In this document: positions 6,260 through 53,509 of the stretch, in pieces
Position numbering within the stretch: the first letter of the stretch is position 1
How the letters are laid out: each line of letters opens with the position of its first letter
Origin: Pseudanabaena sp. UWO311
GTDB taxonomy: Bacteria > Cyanobacteriota > Cyanobacteriia > Pseudanabaenales > Pseudanabaenaceae
Reading direction: 5' to 3'
Length of the DNA: 64,000 nucleotides
Assembly (NCBI RefSeq): GCF_006937785.1
Contig: NZ_SJEE01000006.1
Span: 62,001 to 126,000 of the forward strand
Made by a program: the position numbers and the translations under genes
Notes under the pieces: model-generated
What the model saw: only the letters and a program-made list of their open reading frames with translations
Databases searched by the model: none
Told to the model about the DNA's origin: nothing

Positions 6260-6406
6260 ACTAGAAGGATGAATATTTATTTATTCTGTTTTTAGCCGAG
6301 ATTAGATAGGCAAAAATGGTTGGCTTTGCTGTCGAATACGAAGAAGTTTTAGGCGATAAATGCAGTGATTGGTTTATTCTTGATTAGATTAAGAGTCGGT
6401 GTTTGT

Positions 6407-8059
6407 ATGGAATTTAACTACAGCTACAAGAGCAGTTCGACAATCTCTGGACAGGGCGATCGCACAGCGATGTCGTTCTCACCTGACCTGACAAGGCAAC
6501 CCACCTACTTTAGAGGCGAACTGCACCAGAATATTGCCTTTCGAGAAGCGATTAGTGCCTTGCATGACGTTGTAGTTTCTGACCTTCGTTTTAAGCCAAA
6601 GGATAAAGAAGCTTACAAAGCTTGGGCAGCCCAACGCAATGAGATTGACTGGCAACTGGTCGCCACCCAACGCCAAGAAGTTACAGACAGGATCAAAGCC
6701 CTCCAAGCCGATCTCACGGATCTAAATCGGCGCAGTTCGGAACGGATGTCTGGATTTTATCGAGCTACTGCGAGATATTTTGACTATCTCTATCAAAAGG
6801 ATCGAGATTATTGGTTTGTGCTTGACCCTGTAATTACCGTTCATCCCGATGAAGTTTTTTTTGAATGCTTTAGCCAAGATGAGTCTAGCTATGGTCGTCT
6901 GGGGGCTAGCTATGAGGTATTTAAGAATATTGATGAATTTGCCTGCGGCACTACCAACATCGATTACTCTGCCGCACTCTACGATGAGTTCCAAAAGATT
7001 CGCAGTTATAAACGGACGTTATTGGAGGTTGATCCTTCGGGATTTGAAGTAAAGACCTCAGGAGAGTCTGACTATAAAGAAGTCAAAATCGATCTGCCAG
7101 ATACTTGGGTGCGCGGCTTTTTGCAGGTTAGCTCGGCAATGTCACTTCCCGCAATTCGCTTTGACCTCCATCCCACCGATATTTACAACATCTGTTTTGT
7201 TTTGCGTCGTCGCAAAGAAAAGCAGGGACCGCGCAGTATGCGCTATATTCTCAAGCCGAACGAACCTATCCGAATTGTATTTGAGCCTTGGGGAACGGAA
7301 ATTGTCTGTTCCCGTTCGATTTATGAGGGCAATAGCGATCGCACGATCCGTGTTTGGGGTCGTCGTCGTCTCTTGATTTTGGAGCGTCTGATTCCCGTTG
7401 CGCGTAAATTCACCGTGCATTTACTTGGCAATGGAATGCCTTCTTTTTATGTCGCCGATCTTGAAGATATGTCCTTCACGCTGGGGCTATCAGGCTGGAC
7501 GGCTAATGACTGGGCGAAGGCGAGTAATTTTGATTTACTTGCGCCTAGGGCAAATGTTGATGACCGCACAAAACAGCAGATTTTTGAGGCGCTCAAGCAG
7601 AATTGGGTAGAATCCCCTGACGCGTTGGCGGCAAGACTCAGACTGGATCGCTCGGTGGTTCTTGGTGCGCTCAGTGCCTATACTCAGGCGGGTAGGGCGA
7701 TTTATGACTTAAATAAGCAGGTTTATCGCGTGCGCGAACTATCCAATGTACCTTTACCGATGGATAAACTGCGCTTTGCTAGCGATCGCGAAGCCCAAGC
7801 GAGTCGATTTTTAGAGCAAAAGGCTGTGCGGATTACCAGTGACAATATTGATACTTCGGGAACTCAATTCTTGCAAGGAGAAGTGCGCCACAAAAATCAA
7901 ACTTTCCTACCCGTGGTCACGCTCGATCGCGATCTACGCATTGTTCACGCCGAATGTACTTGCAACTGGCATCAGCAAAACAAGCTATTCAAGGGGCCAT
8001 GCGAACATATCCTCGCAATGCGAATGCATAGCGATCGCATTGCGACATCAATTGTGTAA
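6407..8059 (+). CDS. Winged-helix and SWIM zinc-finger protein (retron-associated)
   Basis: A 550-residue protein starting MEFNYSYKSS; a GTG 14 codons upstream is less likely. The N-terminal two thirds has no domain I recognise, with a coiled region near residues 75-110. Around residues 390-450 a winged-helix-like segment occurs (ALAARLRLDRSVVLGALSAY). Near the C-terminus is a SWIM finger, CTC followed 13 residues later by CEH. SWIM fingers bind zinc and often nucleic acid. It ends 21 bases from the convergent nuclease gene. From memory, WH-SWIM proteins accompany one retron class together with a repeat protein, which fits the neighbours here. Confidence 0.8.
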   Translation: MEFNYSYKSSSTISGQGDRTAMSFSPDLTRQPTYFRGELHQNIAFREAISALHDVVVSDLRFKPKDKEAYKAWAAQRNEIDWQLVATQRQEVTDRIKALQADLTDLNRRSSERMSGFYRATARYFDYLYQKDRDYWFVLDPVITVHPDEVFFECFSQDESSYGRLGASYEVFKNIDEFACGTTNIDYSAALYDEFQKIRSYKRTLLEVDPSGFEVKTSGESDYKEVKIDLPDTWVRGFLQVSSAMSLPAIRFDLHPTDIYNICFVLRRRKEKQGPRSMRYILKPNEPIRIVFEPWGTEIVCSRSIYEGNSDRTIRVWGRRRLLILERLIPVARKFTVHLLGNGMPSFYVADLEDMSFTLGLSGWTANDWAKASNFDLLAPRANVDDRTKQQIFEALKQNWVESPDALAARLRLDRSVVLGALSAYTQAGRAIYDLNKQVYRVRELSNVPLPMDKLRFASDREAQASRFLEQKAVRITSDNIDTSGTQFLQGEVRHKNQTFLPVVTLDRDLRIVHAECTCNWHQQNKLFKGPCEHILAMRMHSDRIATSIV

Positions 8060-8079: not shown

Positions 8080-8973
8080 TCAACGCGCCAAATGTTCTTT
8101 TAGCCAAGCGCTTAAATCAGCAGTTGTTTGTAAGTCAAAGATTACTTCGGCTAAATTTTCTAGCTGCGCGACAGATAGTTTAGAAATTTTAGATTTTATG
8201 CTTGGAGATATTTTACCAAATTTGCGGGTTAGCATCCGTACCAACATCGCAGCCTGTCTTTGTAAACCCTCTTGTTTACCAATTTGCAAGCCCTCTTGTT
8301 TACCAATTTGCAAACCGCGTTGTTCGCCTTCCTGCATAGCCTCTTGGTAGACGCGGGTTTTCTTTAGATCGCTATGTGTAAACATTGATTCAACCTCTTG
8401 ACGACTTAGTTTTGGGAATTTGTATACCAACACTGCCTCTATGAATTCTACTACGTTATCTCTCAGTTCAGTGTTTGTTTCTTGCTCAACTTTTTGGGCT
8501 AGTTTTCTTGCCATGGTTGGTGCTTTTTTTTCTGTGGCTAAGATTAGCTGAATGATGGCTATGCCAAGGGAGTTTGTTTCTTCCCGTAGGTCTTCTAAAT
8601 ATATGCGGGTGATCCTTCCTGAGACAATTAGTTCTTGGCAGAATTTGTCGGGCTTTGGTTCGCTATTGTGTTTCGCGAAGATGGCTATGGCTTGCCAGTC
8701 TTGGATGGGGCGATATTGGTTGAGATAGAGGAAGATTTCGGCTAGGAATTCGGAGTAGAAGTCTTCTTTGGGTTGAAATTGGACTTCTACTAGAAATATT
8801 GGTTTGTCGTTGGCAGTGGGCATAAAGATACCATCAAACCGAAATGCCTTTTCTTTGATCTCGGCTGAGCTAAATTTGTATCCTTCGGCTTCTGCTATGG
8901 TGTGATCAATGAGCTCGAATAGTAGAGTGTTGAAGGATTGGAATAATTGATAAAATAAGGTGTCTGTCTTCAT
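8080..8973 (-). CDS. Rpn-family (DUF2887) PD-(D/E)XK nuclease with DUF4351 tail
   Basis: A 297-residue protein. The N-terminal half has the recombination-promoting-nuclease pattern: FDGIF followed by PIFLVEVQFQ (the D and ExQ of the PD-(D/E)XK core). The C-terminal part (AAMLVRMLTRKFGKISPS to LSAWLKEH) is DUF4351. Between them a seven-residue tandem repeat, GLQIGKQ, is duplicated. The gene starts four bases after the WGR-HEAT stop, with AAAGGA spanning the junction, so the two are translationally coupled. Such nucleases are common, multi-copy and mobile in cyanobacteria. It may therefore be a passenger, or an effector of the retron locus. Confidence 0.8.
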   Translation of the reverse strand: MKTDTLFYQLFQSFNTLLFELIDHTIAEAEGYKFSSAEIKEKAFRFDGIFMPTANDKPIFLVEVQFQPKEDFYSEFLAEIFLYLNQYRPIQDWQAIAIFAKHNSEPKPDKFCQELIVSGRITRIYLEDLREETNSLGIAIIQLILATEKKAPTMARKLAQKVEQETNTELRDNVVEFIEAVLVYKFPKLSRQEVESMFTHSDLKKTRVYQEAMQEGEQRGLQIGKQEGLQIGKQEGLQRQAAMLVRMLTRKFGKISPSIKSKISKLSVAQLENLAEVIFDLQTTADLSAWLKEHLAR

Positions 8974-8977
8974 TCCT

Positions 8978-11900
8978 TTATGATTTTGTGGGGGTAGCCA
9001 TTAGCTTGATGGGAAGCGGGATTTGAGGATATGTGAGATGGATTTTTAAGAGGGATTCTAGGGCTTTGGCTTTATCACCGATCGCGATCGTGGCGGACTG
9101 TCTGGTGAAGATTTGGGCGACGATATGCGCAGCAGCTTCGCTTTTAGTTGCTTCTTGATTGAGAAAAGCGAATACCCGTTGCTTGGTGACACGACCGCGA
9201 TTTACTTGGGCTAAGACTCTTGTGAAATAGGGAATTAGCTCCTGCAAACGACTGGGATTATTTGCCGCGTAGTTTTCTAGATAGTTGGTGGCAAATAGCT
9301 GCATATCCGTAGAAGGATGTTCGCTAAATTTAACTAGATATTCCTGTCCATCGGTTTCTTGAAAACAACGACTGACTAAATCGCGCCCAAACTTGCGCAC
9401 ATCAGCGCGAATGCTGTCACAAACACTGATAATCACCGCAGGCGTAAAGTCTTCAGGTTGCAGCAGTTCTCCAAACAGACGAAATCCAAATAGTCGCGCA
9501 TCATCCCATCGGGATTCTAGGAATGGTAATGCTGCAAGTAATTCCTCAGGCTGGCGGTGCAGGCGTGGGAGGATTTGTTCGCCCATGGGATAGGAAGCAT
9601 TGCGGACTGTGAGAGCTTCATGGTTGCCAAACTCAGCAATCTCTGATGTCGTGAAACTACTCGCCCAAATAGTTCCATTGGTTAAGAGAATAGACCCCGC
9701 TACTTCTTGAGCAGCAGTAGATTTGGATTGGAGAAGTTGCTTAGTCGTCTCTTGGGTAGCAGAAGACATCCATTCAGACAAATCATTTTGGAGCAACTGA
9801 CAGAGAAATTTATGCACACCTTCATCGGTTTCAGGCACAAGCAAGACTTGGAGCAGTTGTCCTGCAAGAATTAGGCTGAATTGATAGTTTTCACTAGCTA
9901 AGCGGCGAATGATCGGACGAATTGCTTCGCGCATATCCGCGATCGCATGGGTCGCGATGGTCAAAATTAGAGCCATGCGTTCTAGCAAAATGCGATCGGG
10001 CAATTGCCCAAAAAGCCTTACACCCAAAACTCGCACATTGTCATAGGGAGATTCTAATAGAGCTTCGATCAAACCAGATGGTAAATCCAATGCATTGACT
10101 TCGTGGTTCACCAGAATCTGCGCTCCCAAAGTTTGTAACTCTGGCAGAGGATGACGCAAGAGATCGAGAATGATTTCTAAGCCTAGCGATCGCAATTGCA
10201 TACTGAAGCTAAGTAAGAGAGTTTCTACGCCTTGCTTGGCTTGTTCTGCTTGATCAGGTTGCAGGGTCAACATCAGAGCAATAATCTGTCCAATTAGCGA
10301 ACGCGCAGTGATATCACTCACAATTGCCGCACCGAGTAACTGCCGTGCAAAAGTTCTAGTCTCCGCTTGTTTGCTCAGTACTAACCCCGCAATTAGTTGA
10401 CTATCCTCAGTTAAAAAGCGATCGCGCTGCTCGTTAATCCATCTATAAGCCGCAGTCCGCGCAGGCGCAAAAGCACAATTAGCCACTGCTAGAATCAGTT
10501 TCCCATCAGGTTGATCAGATTGATAGCGTGCCCCTGCTAGCTCAAATCCTAATTGCGCTGTAACTTCATAAGGACGGTCTAAAATTTTAATCAGATTCTC
10601 TAATGATAGTTCTGCACAAAACTGTTGGCATGATCGCATCGCTTTAACAGCAAAATGATGTACAGGACGACATTGACTTTCTAATAGAAGTTGTAATAAT
10701 GCAGTGGGCTGCTGTTCCCAAAGTTGAGGGAAGGCTTCTTCTCTGACTTTGGGCTCAGGATGTTCAGGCTTGTAGGGTGGAACGCATCGCCATGCTTTGG
10801 AATTGGGCTTTAGGTCGTAGCGGGGGCTATGCTCGAAGAGAATATGATTGAAGGTTAGGTATTTGGCATAAATGTCCCATTCAATTCTGGCTGATTCATA
10901 GCGTCGCCAATTGCGATCGTATTTATAGTAAACGGATTGCCGCACTTCCTCGACATCAGTATCAGAGTAATGCAAGAGAATGCTTACAGCTAAGTTAATG
11001 TAAGCTGGATCGCCTAATTCCCCAAGTTTACGAAGCGATCGCCAAACTCGCCGCCTTAAGTAACTGCGAGTTTTGTCAGTATAAACCTGACTTGTCAGAG
11101 CTGCTTCATATTCTGGATGTTCTCGAAGAGAGAATTCTTTCGTAACTCCTTCTTCTTCGATTAATATCATGATTTCGCGAGTTCTTTGATTTCGGTAAGA
11201 TCTGATGTGAGGAGCAGGCTCGTTTGTATCAAATCTTCGAGTCAGAATTGCAAAGGCTTCCGCATCTTGGCGATATTCGGCAATTTTAAAAATATGTCTG
11301 ACTCTTTGAAAGTAGTTATATCGCAGTGGAACTGTTCTCAAAACATCTAAGATGGCTGGGCGAATCTTCTCACTATCGATTTGATAGAGCAGTTCGATCG
11401 CCATAAAACGGTAGCGATCGTCGCTATTGAGAAGAGTCTGAAAAGCTTCCGCAAATTGCTCAGCAGTACCATGGCGAACTGGATCTTGCAGCGAGATCGG
11501 TAATTGTGCGATTAATTGCGATCGCATCTCCGCTTGTTTTGCACTATCAGCCAGTTTAAAAACAGCTTCAAAGGCAATACGCCTTACTGAGTCTGGCGTA
11601 GCAATATTTTGATACAGCTCTTCTAATGTGGGAATGACACTGCGATCGCCGCACCAACCTAATGACCATGCGATCACGTAGTTCCTAATTGGATTGCGAG
11701 AAGTGTTGAGCATCCGTAACAACAGAGGCACTGCTGCGGCAATCTTTAGCTCGCCCACCCGCCAAATCAATCGATCTAAGGGATGCTGGCGATTCTCTTC
11801 GGCAGCGCTAGTTGTACTACCATGTCTAGATACTCTGCTGGATCTGCCAGAAGCTCGACCAGATACTTGCCGAGTAGCAACGACCGTCGGCACGCCCACA

Positions 11901-12259
11901 TTTAAGATCGCCACTAGACGATTAAGAATTGCTTGGCTTCTGGCATCACTATCAATGGGAATTTCTATAGATGGCGGTGGTGTAATTGCGATCGGTGTAG
12001 AAATCGCCGCCGCTTCCCCAGTAGCATCACGGTAGCCTTTACTTACTTTTGCATTGAGTAAGCGATCGCACAGTTTCTGCGCCTGTTCTAGGGATACGGC
12101 TGTAACTGTCTCAGATTTTTCTTTGAGGACAGTGTCTTGTTTCCCATATCGCGAGTTGACTACATAGCGATTATCACCAATCTGACAAAGATCGATTTCG
12201 TAGACTTTAGCTGAGCTGCCAGCCTGATAAAGTAGCGTCGTTCGTTTAATTATTTGCAT
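8978..12259 (-). CDS. WGR domain plus HEAT/ARM-repeat protein (retron-associated)
   Basis: A 1093-residue soluble protein. Residues 1-75 look like a WGR domain (LLYQAGSSAKVYEIDL, then VVNSRYGKQ), a nucleic-acid-binding fold found in PARPs and bacterial defence proteins. The rest is alpha-solenoid, with many HEAT/ARM-like units such as RPAILDVLRTVPLR and DNVRVLGVRLFGQLP. No nuclease or ATPase motif is visible. It is divergent from the reverse transcriptase with the retron RNA in the gap, and is coupled to the downstream Rpn nuclease. I infer that it scaffolds or senses the RT-msDNA complex. Confidence 0.8.
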   Translation of the reverse strand: MQIIKRTTLLYQAGSSAKVYEIDLCQIGDNRYVVNSRYGKQDTVLKEKSETVTAVSLEQAQKLCDRLLNAKVSKGYRDATGEAAAISTPIAITPPPSIEIPIDSDARSQAILNRLVAILNVGVPTVVATRQVSGRASGRSSRVSRHGSTTSAAEENRQHPLDRLIWRVGELKIAAAVPLLLRMLNTSRNPIRNYVIAWSLGWCGDRSVIPTLEELYQNIATPDSVRRIAFEAVFKLADSAKQAEMRSQLIAQLPISLQDPVRHGTAEQFAEAFQTLLNSDDRYRFMAIELLYQIDSEKIRPAILDVLRTVPLRYNYFQRVRHIFKIAEYRQDAEAFAILTRRFDTNEPAPHIRSYRNQRTREIMILIEEEGVTKEFSLREHPEYEAALTSQVYTDKTRSYLRRRVWRSLRKLGELGDPAYINLAVSILLHYSDTDVEEVRQSVYYKYDRNWRRYESARIEWDIYAKYLTFNHILFEHSPRYDLKPNSKAWRCVPPYKPEHPEPKVREEAFPQLWEQQPTALLQLLLESQCRPVHHFAVKAMRSCQQFCAELSLENLIKILDRPYEVTAQLGFELAGARYQSDQPDGKLILAVANCAFAPARTAAYRWINEQRDRFLTEDSQLIAGLVLSKQAETRTFARQLLGAAIVSDITARSLIGQIIALMLTLQPDQAEQAKQGVETLLLSFSMQLRSLGLEIILDLLRHPLPELQTLGAQILVNHEVNALDLPSGLIEALLESPYDNVRVLGVRLFGQLPDRILLERMALILTIATHAIADMREAIRPIIRRLASENYQFSLILAGQLLQVLLVPETDEGVHKFLCQLLQNDLSEWMSSATQETTKQLLQSKSTAAQEVAGSILLTNGTIWASSFTTSEIAEFGNHEALTVRNASYPMGEQILPRLHRQPEELLAALPFLESRWDDARLFGFRLFGELLQPEDFTPAVIISVCDSIRADVRKFGRDLVSRCFQETDGQEYLVKFSEHPSTDMQLFATNYLENYAANNPSRLQELIPYFTRVLAQVNRGRVTKQRVFAFLNQEATKSEAAAHIVAQIFTRQSATIAIGDKAKALESLLKIHLTYPQIPLPIKLMATPTKS

Positions 12260-12384
12260 GGCAAGCTCAAACTAGTTAAATTGATAACGTGATAACAATT
12301 TAGCTATCCTAAATCGTTTGTATTTGACCCATTTACACAGTCTAGGTTATCGTTTAATAGTACATAATTTGTACGATTTTTATT

Positions 12385-12626
12385 GTCGCAACAGCAGTCA
12401 TAAGGACAAACAACCTTGCAATCCGAATGGTGGATCGCCATTCTTGCATTTAGTCTAAGCGCGCATCACTGGCTTGCTCTTAACTGTGCGTCTCTCGCCC
12501 CTAGTACGTCATCACAGTTTGGCTTCCGAAAAGCTGACGGACGTACTAGGGGCGGAGCCGCTGGAGTTGAGCAATCCAGTCCTGAGAGGTTTACGAAGGA
12601 GTAATCTGTTGACTGCTGCATGTGAC
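12385..12626 (+). ncRNA. Predicted retron msr-msd RNA
   Basis: The ends pair as a1/a2. GTCGCA (12385-12390) pairs with TGTGAC (12621-12626) with one G-U, and CAGCAGTCA (12392-12400) pairs perfectly with TGACTGCTG (12610-12618). Inside, GAATGG/CCATTC (12425-12430, 12438-12443) gives an msr hairpin. CGCCCCTAGTACGTC (12496-12510) and its perfect inverse (12540-12554) give a long msd stem, extended by CTC/GAG with one bulge and capped by a weaker inner stem. CTGGA/TCCAG (12561-12565, 12575-12579) is another hairpin. A guanosine just after a1 (12404 or 12405) could be the branch point. The retron RT follows directly. The fold was done by eye. Confidence 0.75.
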
Positions 12627-12632
12627 TTTTTA

Positions 12633-12708
12633 CAGCGCAAAGCGCTGAATAAGAACCCAAATTTCTATTTAAAAATGTTGCTTTGCAACATTTTTAAATA
12701 GAAATTTG
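12633..12708. repeat. Palindromic repeat between retron RNA and RT gene
   Basis: CAGCGC-AAA-GCGCTG (12633-12647) is followed by a 24-bp perfect inverted repeat (12658-12681 and 12685-12708) with a TTT loop. The same CAGCGC head followed by AACCCA recurs at 56785. The long stem ends 15 bases before the RT start codon and would fold in any RNA reading from the retron RNA into the RT. Confidence 0.8.
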
Positions 12709-12723
12709 ATTTTTGGTATAACT

Positions 12724-14160
12724 ATGACCAATCAACCCCGCAACCGTCAGGAACTATACGATCGCATTAGGCGTAGCTCCAGAGATGAAGTAATTCTGGA
12801 GGAAATGATTCGTTTAGGATTTTGGCCCGCCGCAGGTGAAATGCCCAAGGATCCTGCCGATGAGATTCGGCGCAAGGGCGAGATCATGCGGGAACTTGAG
12901 GATTTAAGAGCGCAAAATCGCCAACTACATAACGAAGAAGCACTAAAAAAAGAAGCTTTAGCACAAAGATTAGCGGAGTCAAAGCGCAAACAACAAGAAA
13001 CCAAAGAGCGACGAGAGCGAGAGCGACAAGAACGTCTAGAAATTTGGGAACTTAAGAAGCAGCAAGAAATTGTATTTCTAGGCGAAGGTGTTTCCGCAGG
13101 ACTCAATAAAACCGAATGCGATCGCGATCGCCTACAAAGCTACGGCTTACCAGAATATGGCACATCGGGCGAGATTGCTGCTGCTATGGGAATCAGCCTC
13201 GGAGAGCTGCGATTTTTAGCCTTTGCTAGACGGGCTAGCAATATCTCTCACTACATCCGTTTCAAAATTGCCAAGAAAACAGGCGGCGAGCGGCTGATTT
13301 CTGCGCCCATGCCAAAACTCAAACAAGCTCAGACATGGATTCTCTATAACATTCTAGAGCAAGTAGATTTACATGAGGCGGCGCATGGCTTTTGTCGTGG
13401 GCGATCGATTGTCACCAATGCCGAGCCGCATGTGGGAGCCGATGTCGTCATCAATCTAGATTTGCAAGATTTCTTTCCTTCTATCTCTTACAAGCGTGTC
13501 AAGGGGTTATTTATATCTCTAGGCTATTCTGAAGCCGCTGCCACAATATTTGGACTAATTAGTACTGATGCTGCTGTAGAAGCAGTGGAACTTGATGGCA
13601 AAACTTATTATGTGGCTCTAGGCGATCGCCATTTGCCTCAGGGTGCACCCAGCAGCCCAGCCATTACCAATTTAATCTGTCGCCGCCTTGACCTGCGCCT
13701 CACCAAGATGGCTGCAAGTCTGGGTTTTGTGTATACCCGCTATGCTGATGATTTAACCTTCTCTGGCTCTGGCGAGAATTTGCGACAGATCTGTAATGTG
13801 CTGAAACGGACGGAGGCGATCGCAACTCATGAGGGATTCACGATTCATCCCCAAAAGACGAGAGTTCTGCATAAGTCTCAACATCAAGAAGTCACAGGGA
13901 TTGTGGTAAATGAGAAACTAAATGTCGATCGAGAAACACTCAAGCGTTTTCGTGCCACATTATTTCAAATTGAGAAGGATGGATTAGCAGGAAAGCATTG
14001 GGGCAATCATCCTGATTTAATTCAATCAATTGAAGGCTTTGCGAACTTTGTGGCGATGGTCAATCCAGAGAAAGGTGGCAAGCTCAAGGAGCAAGTCCAG
14101 CGCATTAAAGCCAGGTACAAACCCAAACGAGTAAAGCGCGTAAGACGAAAAAATAAATAA
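12724..14160 (+). CDS. Retron reverse transcriptase
   Basis: A 478-residue RT starting MTNQPRNRQ at ATG 12724. The first 150 residues are highly charged and probably coiled coil. The RT core has FRRGRSI-like HGFCRGRSIVTNAEPH with the retron NAxxH motif at 232-236, motif A NLDLQDFFPSI (244-254), QGAPSSPAITN, catalytic YADD at 340-343 and the VTG motif at 390-392. NAxxH plus VTG separate retron RTs from group II intron and DGR enzymes. The length and N-terminal extension resemble, from memory, the myxobacterial Mx162-type RTs. It would copy the msd part of the upstream RNA into msDNA. Confidence 0.92.
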   Translation: MTNQPRNRQELYDRIRRSSRDEVILEEMIRLGFWPAAGEMPKDPADEIRRKGEIMRELEDLRAQNRQLHNEEALKKEALAQRLAESKRKQQETKERRERERQERLEIWELKKQQEIVFLGEGVSAGLNKTECDRDRLQSYGLPEYGTSGEIAAAMGISLGELRFLAFARRASNISHYIRFKIAKKTGGERLISAPMPKLKQAQTWILYNILEQVDLHEAAHGFCRGRSIVTNAEPHVGADVVINLDLQDFFPSISYKRVKGLFISLGYSEAAATIFGLISTDAAVEAVELDGKTYYVALGDRHLPQGAPSSPAITNLICRRLDLRLTKMAASLGFVYTRYADDLTFSGSGENLRQICNVLKRTEAIATHEGFTIHPQKTRVLHKSQHQEVTGIVVNEKLNVDRETLKRFRATLFQIEKDGLAGKHWGNHPDLIQSIEGFANFVAMVNPEKGGKLKEQVQRIKARYKPKRVKRVRRKNK

Positions 14161-50209: not shown

Positions 50210-53200
50210 CTATGCCCCTACGGGATTCTCACTCAATTTTGCTAATTCCTCCTTCGCAAATTCCTTTAATTTTTCATCGCGATCGTTGTTAGAGACTGTC
50301 TTCAATAATTCCAATGTTTGAGGTTTATCGCTGTAATGTTTGAGGATTCCTTCTAGTGCAGTTTGGCGGGGATTAGTTTCCCAATCTTCTGCACGTTTAA
50401 AGGGATCGTGGATGGCGAGATCGCATAAAAAATCAAATGTTTGTAGATCATCTTTCCAGCCTTTGGCAATCTCTTGTACCGCCGCCATTCGCACATCATT
50501 ATCCTGATCATTAAGAGCGCGATCTTTTAGCAAAGGAAGGGTGTCAGAGTCATCTTTCCAGACTTCGGAGATCGCTTGTACCGCTGCTTTTCGCACATAA
50601 TAATTCTGATCGTTAAGAGCGCGGTCTTTGAGCCAAGGAAGGGTATCAGAACCATCTTTCCAGACTTCGGAGATCGCTTGTACCGCTGCTATTCGCACAA
50701 ATTTATTCTGACCGTTAAGAGCGCGATCTTTTAGCCAAGGCAGGGTATCAGTGTCATCTTTCCATCCTTTAGCAATCTCTCGTATCGCCATCATTTGCAC
50801 AAATTCATTCTGACCGTTAAGAATGCGGTCTTTTAACCAAGGAAGAATTTCTGGGTCTTTTTTCCATATATGTGCAATCACTCCGACCGCCACCATTTGC
50901 ACATGCGAATTCTGATCATTAAGAGCGCAGTCTTTTAGCCAATGAAGGGTTTCTGAGTCTTCTTTCCATTCTTGTGCAATCACTCCTACCGTAACTATTG
51001 GTATAGAATTTGAATCGGAATCCAAACATTTTTTCAGCCAAGGTAACAAGTCAGAACTATCTTTCCAAATGCTTGCAATGTTAGTAATAATTGTCATTGC
51101 TAATTCAAAATTGAAACCATAAGGGATTTCTTGTTCAACTTCAACTTGTAAGATTTTTAATAATTTGCTTGATGTCGCTGCAATCAAATTCCTATTTCTA
51201 ACCTCCACAAAGCAATCTATCGCTAGTAAAAGATTCGATAGTCCTTCTTTTTGAAGATGGTTTTCCTCATCCAAAAAAGCACTTCTGTCAACTTTCTGAT
51301 CTAAAAGAAAATCAATAATCTCTGCAACAAACCTCGGCTCGATCATCCCAGAAATCAATCGCAAAACCTCATGCCAAGACTCATCCTGCCAATGGTTCCC
51401 AAACACATCATTGATTAACTGCTCAATCGTCAGCGTTTGCGACTCCTTAAACTGCCAAACAAACTCCCACGCACAAAAATATTCCAAAAAAGTCCGATGC
51501 ACAAAACCATAGGAATCCCCACCCAGATCGCAGAGAATGAAATTGCGCGTGCGAAGCTGACCGATCATGATACGAGCGATTTCCCTTGGCTTCTCCACCT
51601 CAATCGTCTTCAGGTAATCCGTTAAAATGCTCTCCAACTGCGCCGCACTAATCAAATTCCCCTCCAAACCCTTCGCACTCGACTGCATATAATAGGCAAC
51701 CTTCCGCAACATCGCCTGCTTATCGCGATAGTCAATCGTTTTCGGGTCAATCCGCCGATCCTCCACTAGCGCCCGTTCCACATCCCATTGATGCAACAAC
51801 ACCCTCGAAGCTTGGTTATACAGTTCAGGACGATCCCTCGGTAACTCCTGATTACGATTGAGAATCGCCATCATCGTTAATAACAAAGGATTTCCCGCCA
51901 ACTCCTTAATCGATCGCGACTCCCTAATCGCCTTCTGCAACCGCTCCCGCTTGCGATCCTTATCCGCACCCTCCGCAAAATTCAGATCATGCCAACGCAC
52001 CACAAACTCCTGCATCTGCTCATCATTCAACTCTTGCAGCATAAAGTGCTGAAACCCCGCATCCCTTAACCGTTGTGCCTTATAGCCCAACCACCGCGAA
52101 GTCGCAACAGCCCTCACCGCAGGATACTCATTCGTAAAGCGATGGATATCCGTCACCACCTCATCCCGCAACGCAGGATCGAACACCTCATCAATCCCAT
52201 CAAATAGGGCAATTACATCACCATTCTTCAGCTTTTCATGCAAATCCTGCTGATTCAGCCGACAGGTAATATTCCCCCCATGAATAAACGAAACAATATC
52301 CTGACATTTCCCTGCCTGCTTATCACGGGCATAGGTACGCAACTCCAACAAAAGCGGCAACGGATACAAAGGTAAATCTCGCACAGGTCGCTCCGCCCAA
52401 ATCAGCGCCAGATATTGCAACAGCGTCGATTTTCCCGAACCTGGATCGCCCAAGATCACTGCATATTTAGCAACGACCTCCTTCGCCAACTCCTGCGGAT
52501 CGCCCAATACCTCAAATACTCCCCGAATCGGTTGCTCGACATAGCGCTTGCGATGATTCTCTAACTCCGCTTCCGCAAGTTCCAACACATCCAACTGTCC
52601 ACTCTCCTGCAACAGCCGCGATCGATCCTTCGGCAACTCATACACCTGCGGAATAAACTCCTGACATTCCCGCAAATTCTGAGGAATAAAGATCTTCCAA
52701 AGCTTCAACTCGTTGTAATAAACTCCAGTCGTATCCAGAGATTCCAGCTTCAAGTTGCCATACTGCTCCCGCAACCCTTCCGCATACTGCCCCAAATTAA
52801 ATGTTGGTGCAATTCCTACTAATTCCTGTGTACCATCCGCGATTTTATCCAAGGTCTGCACCTCAAAAATCGGGCGCAACTTATCCGAATTCTGGACAAG
52901 TTTCTTGACCGATTTGATGTAGGACTTACACACAAAATCCCAATCCATATCCTCAGGCAAAAGTGGTGAATTCAAAGCCGCCCAAGTCCGCACCAACAGC
53001 GCCGTATCGATCGCCTTACATTCCACATCAAACGCCATCCCCAAAGCCGCAGCAACTTCTTCGCGATCGATAAACTTCTTCAAAAAAGGAACGTACTGCT
53101 TAATAATTGCTTCCTTATAACCCGCCCCTTGCAACTCATCCTGAATAAGTTCCAAAAAATTTTTCAGTGCTTTCCCATAGGCTTCCTTTAGCACATCATG

Positions 53201-53347
53201 TTCGGGCAAGCGGATCACCTTTTTCAGGCAATCCTTAAAAAAGTCCTTGCCATAATCCTTTGCCGCATCCTTTGCCAAATCCTGAAGGATGGGATAAACA
53301 ACTACACCCGCCGCCTGTGTCACGCCCCAAACAACTAACCATTCCAT
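50210..53347 (-). CDS. NACHT NTPase with HEAT repeats (candidate defence protein)
   Basis: A 1045-residue STAND-type protein. The N-terminal 250 residues are helical and unassigned. A NACHT module follows, with Walker A GDPGSGKST at 300-308, Walker B ALFDGIDEV and the GNPLLLTMM helix. The last third holds at least six HEAT units of 34 residues of the form DTLPWLKDRALN-Q--VR-AAVQAI, nearly identical at the DNA level. The ATG at 53347 has GGAG upstream; a TTG five codons earlier is less likely. Such proteins sense phage in other bacteria; the effector here is unclear. Confidence 0.82.
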   Translation of the reverse strand: MEWLVVWGVTQAAGVVVYPILQDLAKDAAKDYGKDFFKDCLKKVIRLPEHDVLKEAYGKALKNFLELIQDELQGAGYKEAIIKQYVPFLKKFIDREEVAAALGMAFDVECKAIDTALLVRTWAALNSPLLPEDMDWDFVCKSYIKSVKKLVQNSDKLRPIFEVQTLDKIADGTQELVGIAPTFNLGQYAEGLREQYGNLKLESLDTTGVYYNELKLWKIFIPQNLRECQEFIPQVYELPKDRSRLLQESGQLDVLELAEAELENHRKRYVEQPIRGVFEVLGDPQELAKEVVAKYAVILGDPGSGKSTLLQYLALIWAERPVRDLPLYPLPLLLELRTYARDKQAGKCQDIVSFIHGGNITCRLNQQDLHEKLKNGDVIALFDGIDEVFDPALRDEVVTDIHRFTNEYPAVRAVATSRWLGYKAQRLRDAGFQHFMLQELNDEQMQEFVVRWHDLNFAEGADKDRKRERLQKAIRESRSIKELAGNPLLLTMMAILNRNQELPRDRPELYNQASRVLLHQWDVERALVEDRRIDPKTIDYRDKQAMLRKVAYYMQSSAKGLEGNLISAAQLESILTDYLKTIEVEKPREIARIMIGQLRTRNFILCDLGGDSYGFVHRTFLEYFCAWEFVWQFKESQTLTIEQLINDVFGNHWQDESWHEVLRLISGMIEPRFVAEIIDFLLDQKVDRSAFLDEENHLQKEGLSNLLLAIDCFVEVRNRNLIAATSSKLLKILQVEVEQEIPYGFNFELAMTIITNIASIWKDSSDLLPWLKKCLDSDSNSIPIVTVGVIAQEWKEDSETLHWLKDCALNDQNSHVQMVAVGVIAHIWKKDPEILPWLKDRILNGQNEFVQMMAIREIAKGWKDDTDTLPWLKDRALNGQNKFVRIAAVQAISEVWKDGSDTLPWLKDRALNDQNYYVRKAAVQAISEVWKDDSDTLPLLKDRALNDQDNDVRMAAVQEIAKGWKDDLQTFDFLCDLAIHDPFKRAEDWETNPRQTALEGILKHYSDKPQTLELLKTVSNNDRDEKLKEFAKEELAKLSENPVGA

Positions 53348-53509
53348 CGCCTCAAACTCCAAGAATACGACTCAGATGCTTTGCCAATTACTAAGAGCGA
53401 CTAGCTCCTGATTTCAGCGATTATATCAAATTAGCTAAGGTTTAGCTGAAAGTATTTGACATACTCACTGATGTTACGTAGAAGGAATTCCTGTCATAGC
53501 ATAGGTTGG

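Follow-up and report, generated by a model that had tools for sequence, protein, structure and literature searches.

The RNA encoded on the forward strand at positions 12385-12626 of the window (by which we mean the whole 64,000-nt stretch of Pseudanabaena sp. UWO311 DNA analyzed here) is very probably the msr-msd RNA of a type XIII retron, a reading to which we give a probability of about 0.92. Bacterial retrons are suspected anti-virus systems that copy part of an RNA into DNA. The original prediction, made from the letters of the sequence, had proposed such an RNA as a candidate, and it is now supported by the set of genes around it, by covariation among homologous loci, and by the preference of its two ends, a1 and a2, for one another over partners from other species. 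The order of a1, msr hairpin, long msd hairpin, a2, and reverse transcriptase (RT) gene is that of a retron, which also supports the msr-msd interpretation.

A type XIII gene set around a structured RNA

Genes matching RT_XIII, SWIM_XIII, and WGR_XIII are all present in one locus according to PADLOC, and because these three occur together, we assign the locus to the type XIII retrons.

12724-14160, forward strand: open reading frame (ORF) of the type XIII retron RT (PADLOC RT_XIII, 2.2e-197; RVT_1; motifs)
6407-8059, forward strand: SWIM_XIII protein (PADLOC, 4.7e-242), with a predicted PCNA-like clamp fold, a winged helix, and a SWIM zinc finger
8978-12259, reverse strand: WGR_XIII protein (PADLOC, E printed as 0; Pfam HEAT_2; AlphaFold2 model)

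The RT gene follows the RNA on its 3' side, as had been claimed, and its ORF starts with an ATG at 12724, an in-frame TTG at 12706 also being open; the SWIM_XIII ORF is open from a GTG at 6365. The RT carries NAxxH, LPQG, YADD, and VTG, motifs that are counted as retron hallmarks. It matches other retron RT profiles in PADLOC besides RT_XIII, and its nearest solved chains are retron RTs, the closest being that of retron Ec86 (3e-44), with a match that begins at residue 135. Judged by its sequence, the RT is a member of the retron clade.

Folding, which had been suggested as a check, favors a structured RNA: the minimum free energy (MFE) of 12385-12626 is -106.9 kcal/mol, compared with -72.6 (standard deviation [sd] 5.3) for 200 dinucleotide shuffles, none of which was as stable (z -6.48). 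The ends pair over 6 plus 9 bp with a small internal loop, in agreement with the original prediction, both in the sequence and in the MFE structure. The outer helix (12385-12390/12621-12626) has 6 bp, one of them G-U, the inner helix (12392-12400/12610-12618) has 9 bp, and the internal loop between them consists of A versus CA. All of the hairpins described earlier were recovered as well, namely, the msr-like hairpin at 12425-12443 (which a scan of the region also lists), the perfect 15-bp stem, and the small hairpin at the tip. The parts of the RNA, all on the forward strand, are as follows:

12385-12400, forward strand: a1, pairing over 6 + 9 bp with a2 and preferring its own partner across species
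12414-12419, forward strand: CCTTGC block, whose CTTGC does not vary among 25 aligned sequences; the favored candidate for the priming guanosine is G12418
12425-12443, forward strand: msr hairpin, with 100% of cells paired and changes on both sides in 5 of 8 pairs
12450-12467, forward strand: conserved linker with the invariant G12453 (alignment); likely end of reverse transcription
12468-12485, forward strand: basal msd stem, 5' arm (consensus helix 2, 94% of cells paired)
12496-12510, forward strand: species-variable 15-bp stem, 5' arm (sequence, MFE, consensus helices 3 and 4)
12511-12539, forward strand: tip with small hairpin (MFE, alignment)
12540-12554, forward strand: 15-bp stem, 3' arm (sequence, MFE, covariation)
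12565-12580, forward strand: basal msd stem, 3' arm (consensus helix 2)
12588-12599, forward strand: conserved GGTTTACGAAGG, probable template start at ~12595
12610-12626, forward strand: a2 (sequence, MFE, cross-species pairing)
12627-12631, forward strand: five consecutive Ts immediately after a2, resembling a terminator when taken with the a1/a2 stem

Conservation and covariation across loci

RT relatives were drawn from 58 related genomes, 386 genomes of the phylum, and the genome_contigs collection (labels with L denote locus records, and labels with G denote genomes of the sample), and an iterated RNA profile was run on 45 locus records comprising the window, L042-L058, and L098-L124. 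The profile matches 33 of these records, which comprise 26 distinct full-core loci, two second copies, and five records (L108, L110, L111, L112, and L117) in which approximately the msr half only is matched. By their titles and lineages, the full-core loci span Cyanobacteriota, Acidobacteriota, Bacteroidota, Myxococcota, Thermodesulfobacteriota, Verrucomicrobiota, and Pseudomonadota, and the core lies 26-2476 nt before the RT gene, within 300 nt in 23 of the 26. The RTs of the two nearest named relatives, both Pseudanabaena, are 97% and 96% identical to that of the window, and the seed RNA profile matched none of the 39 more distant relatives from genome_contigs (L059-L097). Viral contigs yielded one distant relative and plasmids one record, so spread by phages or plasmids finds no support in these collections.

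Structure conservation in homologous loci is evident from RNAalifold on 25 aligned sequences, in which 24 of 33 consensus pairs have changed on both sides. Over these pairs, 93.3% of cells are paired, compared with 75.9% in shuffles (0 of 500 as high) and 32-43% when the partners are slid by 1-3 columns. In the CGAAG motif before a2, the C, G, A, and G are invariant in the alignment. Since the homologous loci show compensatory change, and since their differing a1/a2 ends are mostly complementary, the structure is more than chance.

The pairing of the ends was compared across species in 19 non-redundant loci out of the 26 with a full core, using an ungapped helix score. Duplexfold energies had been tried as the cross-species control and were dropped: the energy of the window's own pair is reached by 35% of cross pairs and that of L099 by 51%; these energies are confounded by GC-rich species, which is why the ungapped score replaced them. 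A locus's own a1/a2 helix averages 12.9, versus 6.2 (sd 1.3, maximum 12.3) over 342 cross-species pairings. On whether homologous RT loci lack paired ends, a question raised with the original prediction, the ends prove mostly paired: the own partner scores highest in 14 rows and in 14 columns, out of 19 each, and the picture is less clear in the others. The weakest are L056, L118, and L119, the helix found for L121 and L118 is located at a distance from the core, and the window's own pair ranks second by row and first by column.

At least five Ts in a row follow the core at a distance of up to 60 nt in 11 of the 20 linked loci, where 1.2 would be expected from the flanks, and in all eight copies not linked to an RT, the latter as a bare count. 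In the window, the five Ts begin immediately after a2, and the closing stem may therefore also serve as a terminator. A terminator scan of the region does not list the a1/a2 stem, whose loop far exceeds the limit of the scan.

Extent of the msd and a proposed mechanism

The msd had been estimated at 110-120 bases, and here the original prediction needs revision: ~140 nt is more likely because the basal stem covaries down to 12468/12580. The predicted complementary DNA, from ~12595 to ~12454 (~142 nt), is predicted to fold by itself as a single long hairpin (-39.9 kcal/mol, z -6.98). In known retrons, as described in the available excerpts of PMC8989520 and PMC6868368, the RT primes from the 2'-OH of a guanosine beside inverted repeats, and the excerpt of PMC6868368 places this guanosine within AGC.

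If the RNA acts as these retron RNAs do, then it would be transcribed on its own, ending at the a1/a2 stem and the T-run, and the RT would bind the msr hairpin. Priming would come from the 2'-OH of an invariant G, for which G12418 is our first choice and G12453 our second, and CCTT of the CTTGC block could pair with the AAGG that overlaps CGAAG before a2. Copying would then start at the conserved CGAAG beside a2 and run back to ~12454, and the product would be a branched multicopy single-stranded DNA (msDNA) of ~140 nt with a long hairpin. By analogy, and with less assurance than the preceding steps, the RT-msDNA complex might restrain the clamp-like SWIM protein and the WGR-HEAT protein until phage infection disturbs the complex. 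Effectors of other retrons are reported to be restrained by such a complex until phage infection.

A doubtful variant of this scheme keeps the RNA as an msr-msd but makes the msd shorter (~105-120 nt) or moves the priming base to G12453. G12453 is indeed invariant and lies within AGC in several homologs, and the shorter msd would correspond to copying that stops within the basal stem or above it; given how far down that stem covaries, however, a stop inside it would split a conserved helix. A priming G adjacent to the inverted repeats, as in the excerpt of PMC8989520, also suits position 12418 better than 12453.

Reverse transcriptases encoded away from the RNA

Among the 386 genomes of the phylum, 22 are positive for RT_XIII (E <=1e-120), 15 for the RNA (E <=0.001), and 15 for SWIM_XIII (E <=1e-100), and all 15 RNA-positive and all 15 SWIM-positive genomes fall within the 22 that have RT_XIII. 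The full RNA is found together with SWIM in 13 genomes. In three of these (G000, G073, and G090), no more than 300 nt separate the RT from the RNA, and in another three (G091, G241, and G243), the distance is 1.8-2.5 kb; in the remaining seven, the RT is encoded elsewhere, 639 kb off in G352 and 28 kb off in G403, each on one contig, and on a different contig from the RNA in G064, G178, G220, G259, and G364. A tblastn search of 17-18 kb around the seven unlinked RNAs found no RT relative at E <=1; it found SWIM near all seven and WGR near six. Each of the seven split genomes has one RT_XIII match, which retains NAxxH, LPQG, YADD, and VTG. Should this RT use the RNA as its substrate, then the separation of the two in 7 of 13 genomes means that the reaction takes place in trans.

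In a quick, midpoint-rooted RT tree of 42 rows, the 22 adjacent rows make up one side of a branch (97*); this side holds all rows from outside the window's class, and the split and near-split RTs fall outside the branch. RT and SWIM distances, compared over 22 genomes with L048, L042, L113, L116, and L119 excluded beforehand, correlate with r 0.96 (0 of 5000 permutations as high), and the correlation is r 0.82 for the ten split or near genomes (1 of 5000) and r 0.50 for the seven split genomes (161 of 5000). Common descent alone could explain this correlation.

The RNA and RT of the unlinked genomes might no longer cooperate, the RT having taken another job and the RNA serving the SWIM/WGR module only. 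We consider this unlikely. The unlinked RT does sit among ordinary chromosomal genes, with an RNase III gene next upstream in G064 (33 nt) and G364 (343 nt), as also in the near-linked G241 (38 nt), and the agreement of RT and SWIM distances in the seven split genomes is moderate. On the other hand, neither the RNA nor SWIM was ever found in a sampled genome without the RT, the motifs of the unlinked RTs are intact, and the unlinked RNAs retain the core, a1/a2, and the T-run. The upstream neighbor of the RT in G091 looks like that in G064, G364, and G241.

One of the split genomes holds two RNA copies ~1.1 kb apart behind one SWIM gene (L174; G220:C163, 99604-99792 and 98278-98512) and a single RT_XIII. 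The ends of the two copies are almost identical, and their msd hairpins differ, one being longer.

Several observations weigh against reading the RNA as the msr-msd of a type XIII retron. AGC behind a1 is not conserved in the alignment of 25, where the invariant G lies in CTTGC. In 5 of 19 loci, one of them that of the window, another pairing in the row scores at least as high as the own a1/a2 helix. The RNA model finds no match in 7 of the 22 RT_XIII genomes; five of these (G100, G125, G372, G395, and G419) have neither RNA nor SWIM, and the other two, G163 and G218, have SWIM despite lacking an RNA match. G094 and G249 match the RNA model weakly, and both are without SWIM.

It is very improbable that the RNA is instead a structured RNA unrelated to retrons, for example, a leader or attenuator controlling expression of the RT gene: it does precede that gene on the same strand with a terminator-like T-run behind it, but seven genomes keep the RNA with no RT behind it, and only genomes that have an RT somewhere do so, while a1/a2 with a short hairpin and a long variable hairpin is the layout of an msr-msd. 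On account of the unlinked loci, we rejected a role as a mere leader of the RT.

A predicted clamp-like partner

The SWIM protein, modeled with AlphaFold2 on 11 SWIM proteins, is predicted to have a two-domain PCNA-type clamp fold. The mean predicted local distance difference test score (pLDDT) is 63.9, with blocks of 70-92 over residues 241-360; residues 31-240 score 36-80, which leaves the first half of the clamp modeled with low confidence. In Foldseek against the PDB, the matches listed are PCNA chains, with a best E of 1e-9 and target template modeling scores mostly of 0.6-0.75. Among the matches listed by VIA-align, residues 33-364 of the model cover whole PCNA and 9-1-1 chains (Z 18.3-19.2, root mean square deviation 2.7-3.3 A over ~230-240 residues, 7-14% identity), and clamps also make up most of the top matches in a viral library. 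The SWIM profile against PDB sequences recovered no clamp, the best match being FANCL at 0.033, and Pfam up to E 10 gave no clamp for the 11 SWIM members; the SWIM finger and weak winged helices were seen. A shared clamp fold is no proof of function. The AlphaFold2 model of the WGR protein (mean pLDDT 82.6) has a beta-rich N-terminal head and a long HEAT-like helical solenoid.

Taken as a whole, these features suggest an idea that we put forward tentatively and at somewhat less than even odds. Type XIII retrons may guard or load a PCNA-like ring, with the msDNA serving as the DNA on which, or by means of which, the clamp-like SWIM protein and its WGR-HEAT partner stay held until phage replication disturbs it. 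Many cyanobacteria would then carry a natural trans retron in which the RNA, clamp gene, and WGR gene form one module with the RT apart, and the compact cassette of the window and of the sampled loci from other phyla would be one lineage.

Neighboring features and divergent relatives

A consensus scan places one promoter-like site directly upstream of the RNA:

12324-12353, forward strand: promoter-like TTGACC-N18-TATCGT, 31 nt before a1

The same scan finds three such sites in the region, against 1.2 expected in shuffles, and a TTGACC block stands at a comparable place in the Pseudanabaena relatives L002, L042, and L045. Between the RNA and the RT gene lies a near-perfect palindrome (12661-12705). 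A query of 12640-12722 has 18 matches in its own genome, two of them this place itself, which marks it as a dispersed repeat element; L042 lacks the palindrome, and its RNA core lies 59 nt before the RT. A gene for a DUF2887/DUF4351 protein (8080-8973), which has no PADLOC match, sits between the SWIM and WGR genes. Further away, 50210-53362 encodes a protein of 1050 aa, includes five copies of a 102-base tandem repeat, and matches PADLOC HEAT-ARM_XIII (8e-10); it apparently lies outside the retron.

Some relatives depart from this arrangement. The type XIII-like RTs of L108, L110, L111, and L112 constitute a sister group, are extended at the N terminus (with TPR in L112, the one scanned), and have no SWIM nearby; their msr-like hairpin and a different msd lie downstream of the RT. 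L117 (G094) has an RT_XIII-like gene with a partial msr-like match upstream, beside a 1360-aa ORF and without SWIM. In L113 and L116 (G163 and G218, genomes of 1.7-1.8 Mb), a divergent RT (36-37% identity) stands directly behind a SWIM gene (30-31%), a large ORF precedes the pair, and the RNA model has no match in these genomes. These two loci appear to be a distant branch, presumably with an RNA that the model does not match.

Comparison with known systems

The scheme of retron types is reportedly that of Mestre et al. 2020. Searches of openly licensed papers turned up next to nothing on type XIII retrons, nothing that joins type XIII to a noncoding RNA, and nothing that joins a retron to SWIM and WGR; for retrons with a sliding clamp, PCNA-like, or SWIM protein, the retron titles among the matches listed concern group II introns in phages and DarT/DarG. 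The original prediction had also claimed that the RNA has no annotation. This holds for Rfam, where searches at the gathering score and up to E 10 gave only a noise match to sR14 on the other strand; the claim is limited to Rfam, as PADLOC keeps msr-msd covariance models of its own according to the available excerpt of PMC9252829.

The window supplies a concrete type XIII template RNA, for which there are now a covariance model and predicted ends, and the unlinked RTs of its relatives offer a natural test of retron function in trans. Because these RTs are encoded apart from the RNA, RNA searches restricted to RT neighborhoods miss some retron RNAs. The clamp-like partner and the unlinked RT in relatives will be unexpected to specialists, and the former, if true, would point to the DNA replication machinery as the target that the retron watches or attacks.

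With the type XIII retrons recognized by PADLOC, the window shares all three protein families, RT_XIII, SWIM_XIII, and WGR_XIII. It differs in its inverted WGR gene and in the DUF2887/DUF4351 gene between SWIM and WGR, and unlike the window, 16 of 26 loci have a SWIM gene that ends 47-480 nt before the RNA core. Retron Ec86 (Eco1) has the nearest solved RT, to which that of the window adds an N-terminal extension of ~135 residues; the msr hairpin presumably resembles that of Ec86, whereas the accessory proteins differ and the window's RNA lacks a conserved AGC. Compared with PCNA-type clamps, the SWIM model spans the whole PCNA chain, and what the SWIM protein has of its own is a helical stretch at ~66-138, a C-terminal winged helix, and the SWIM zinc finger.
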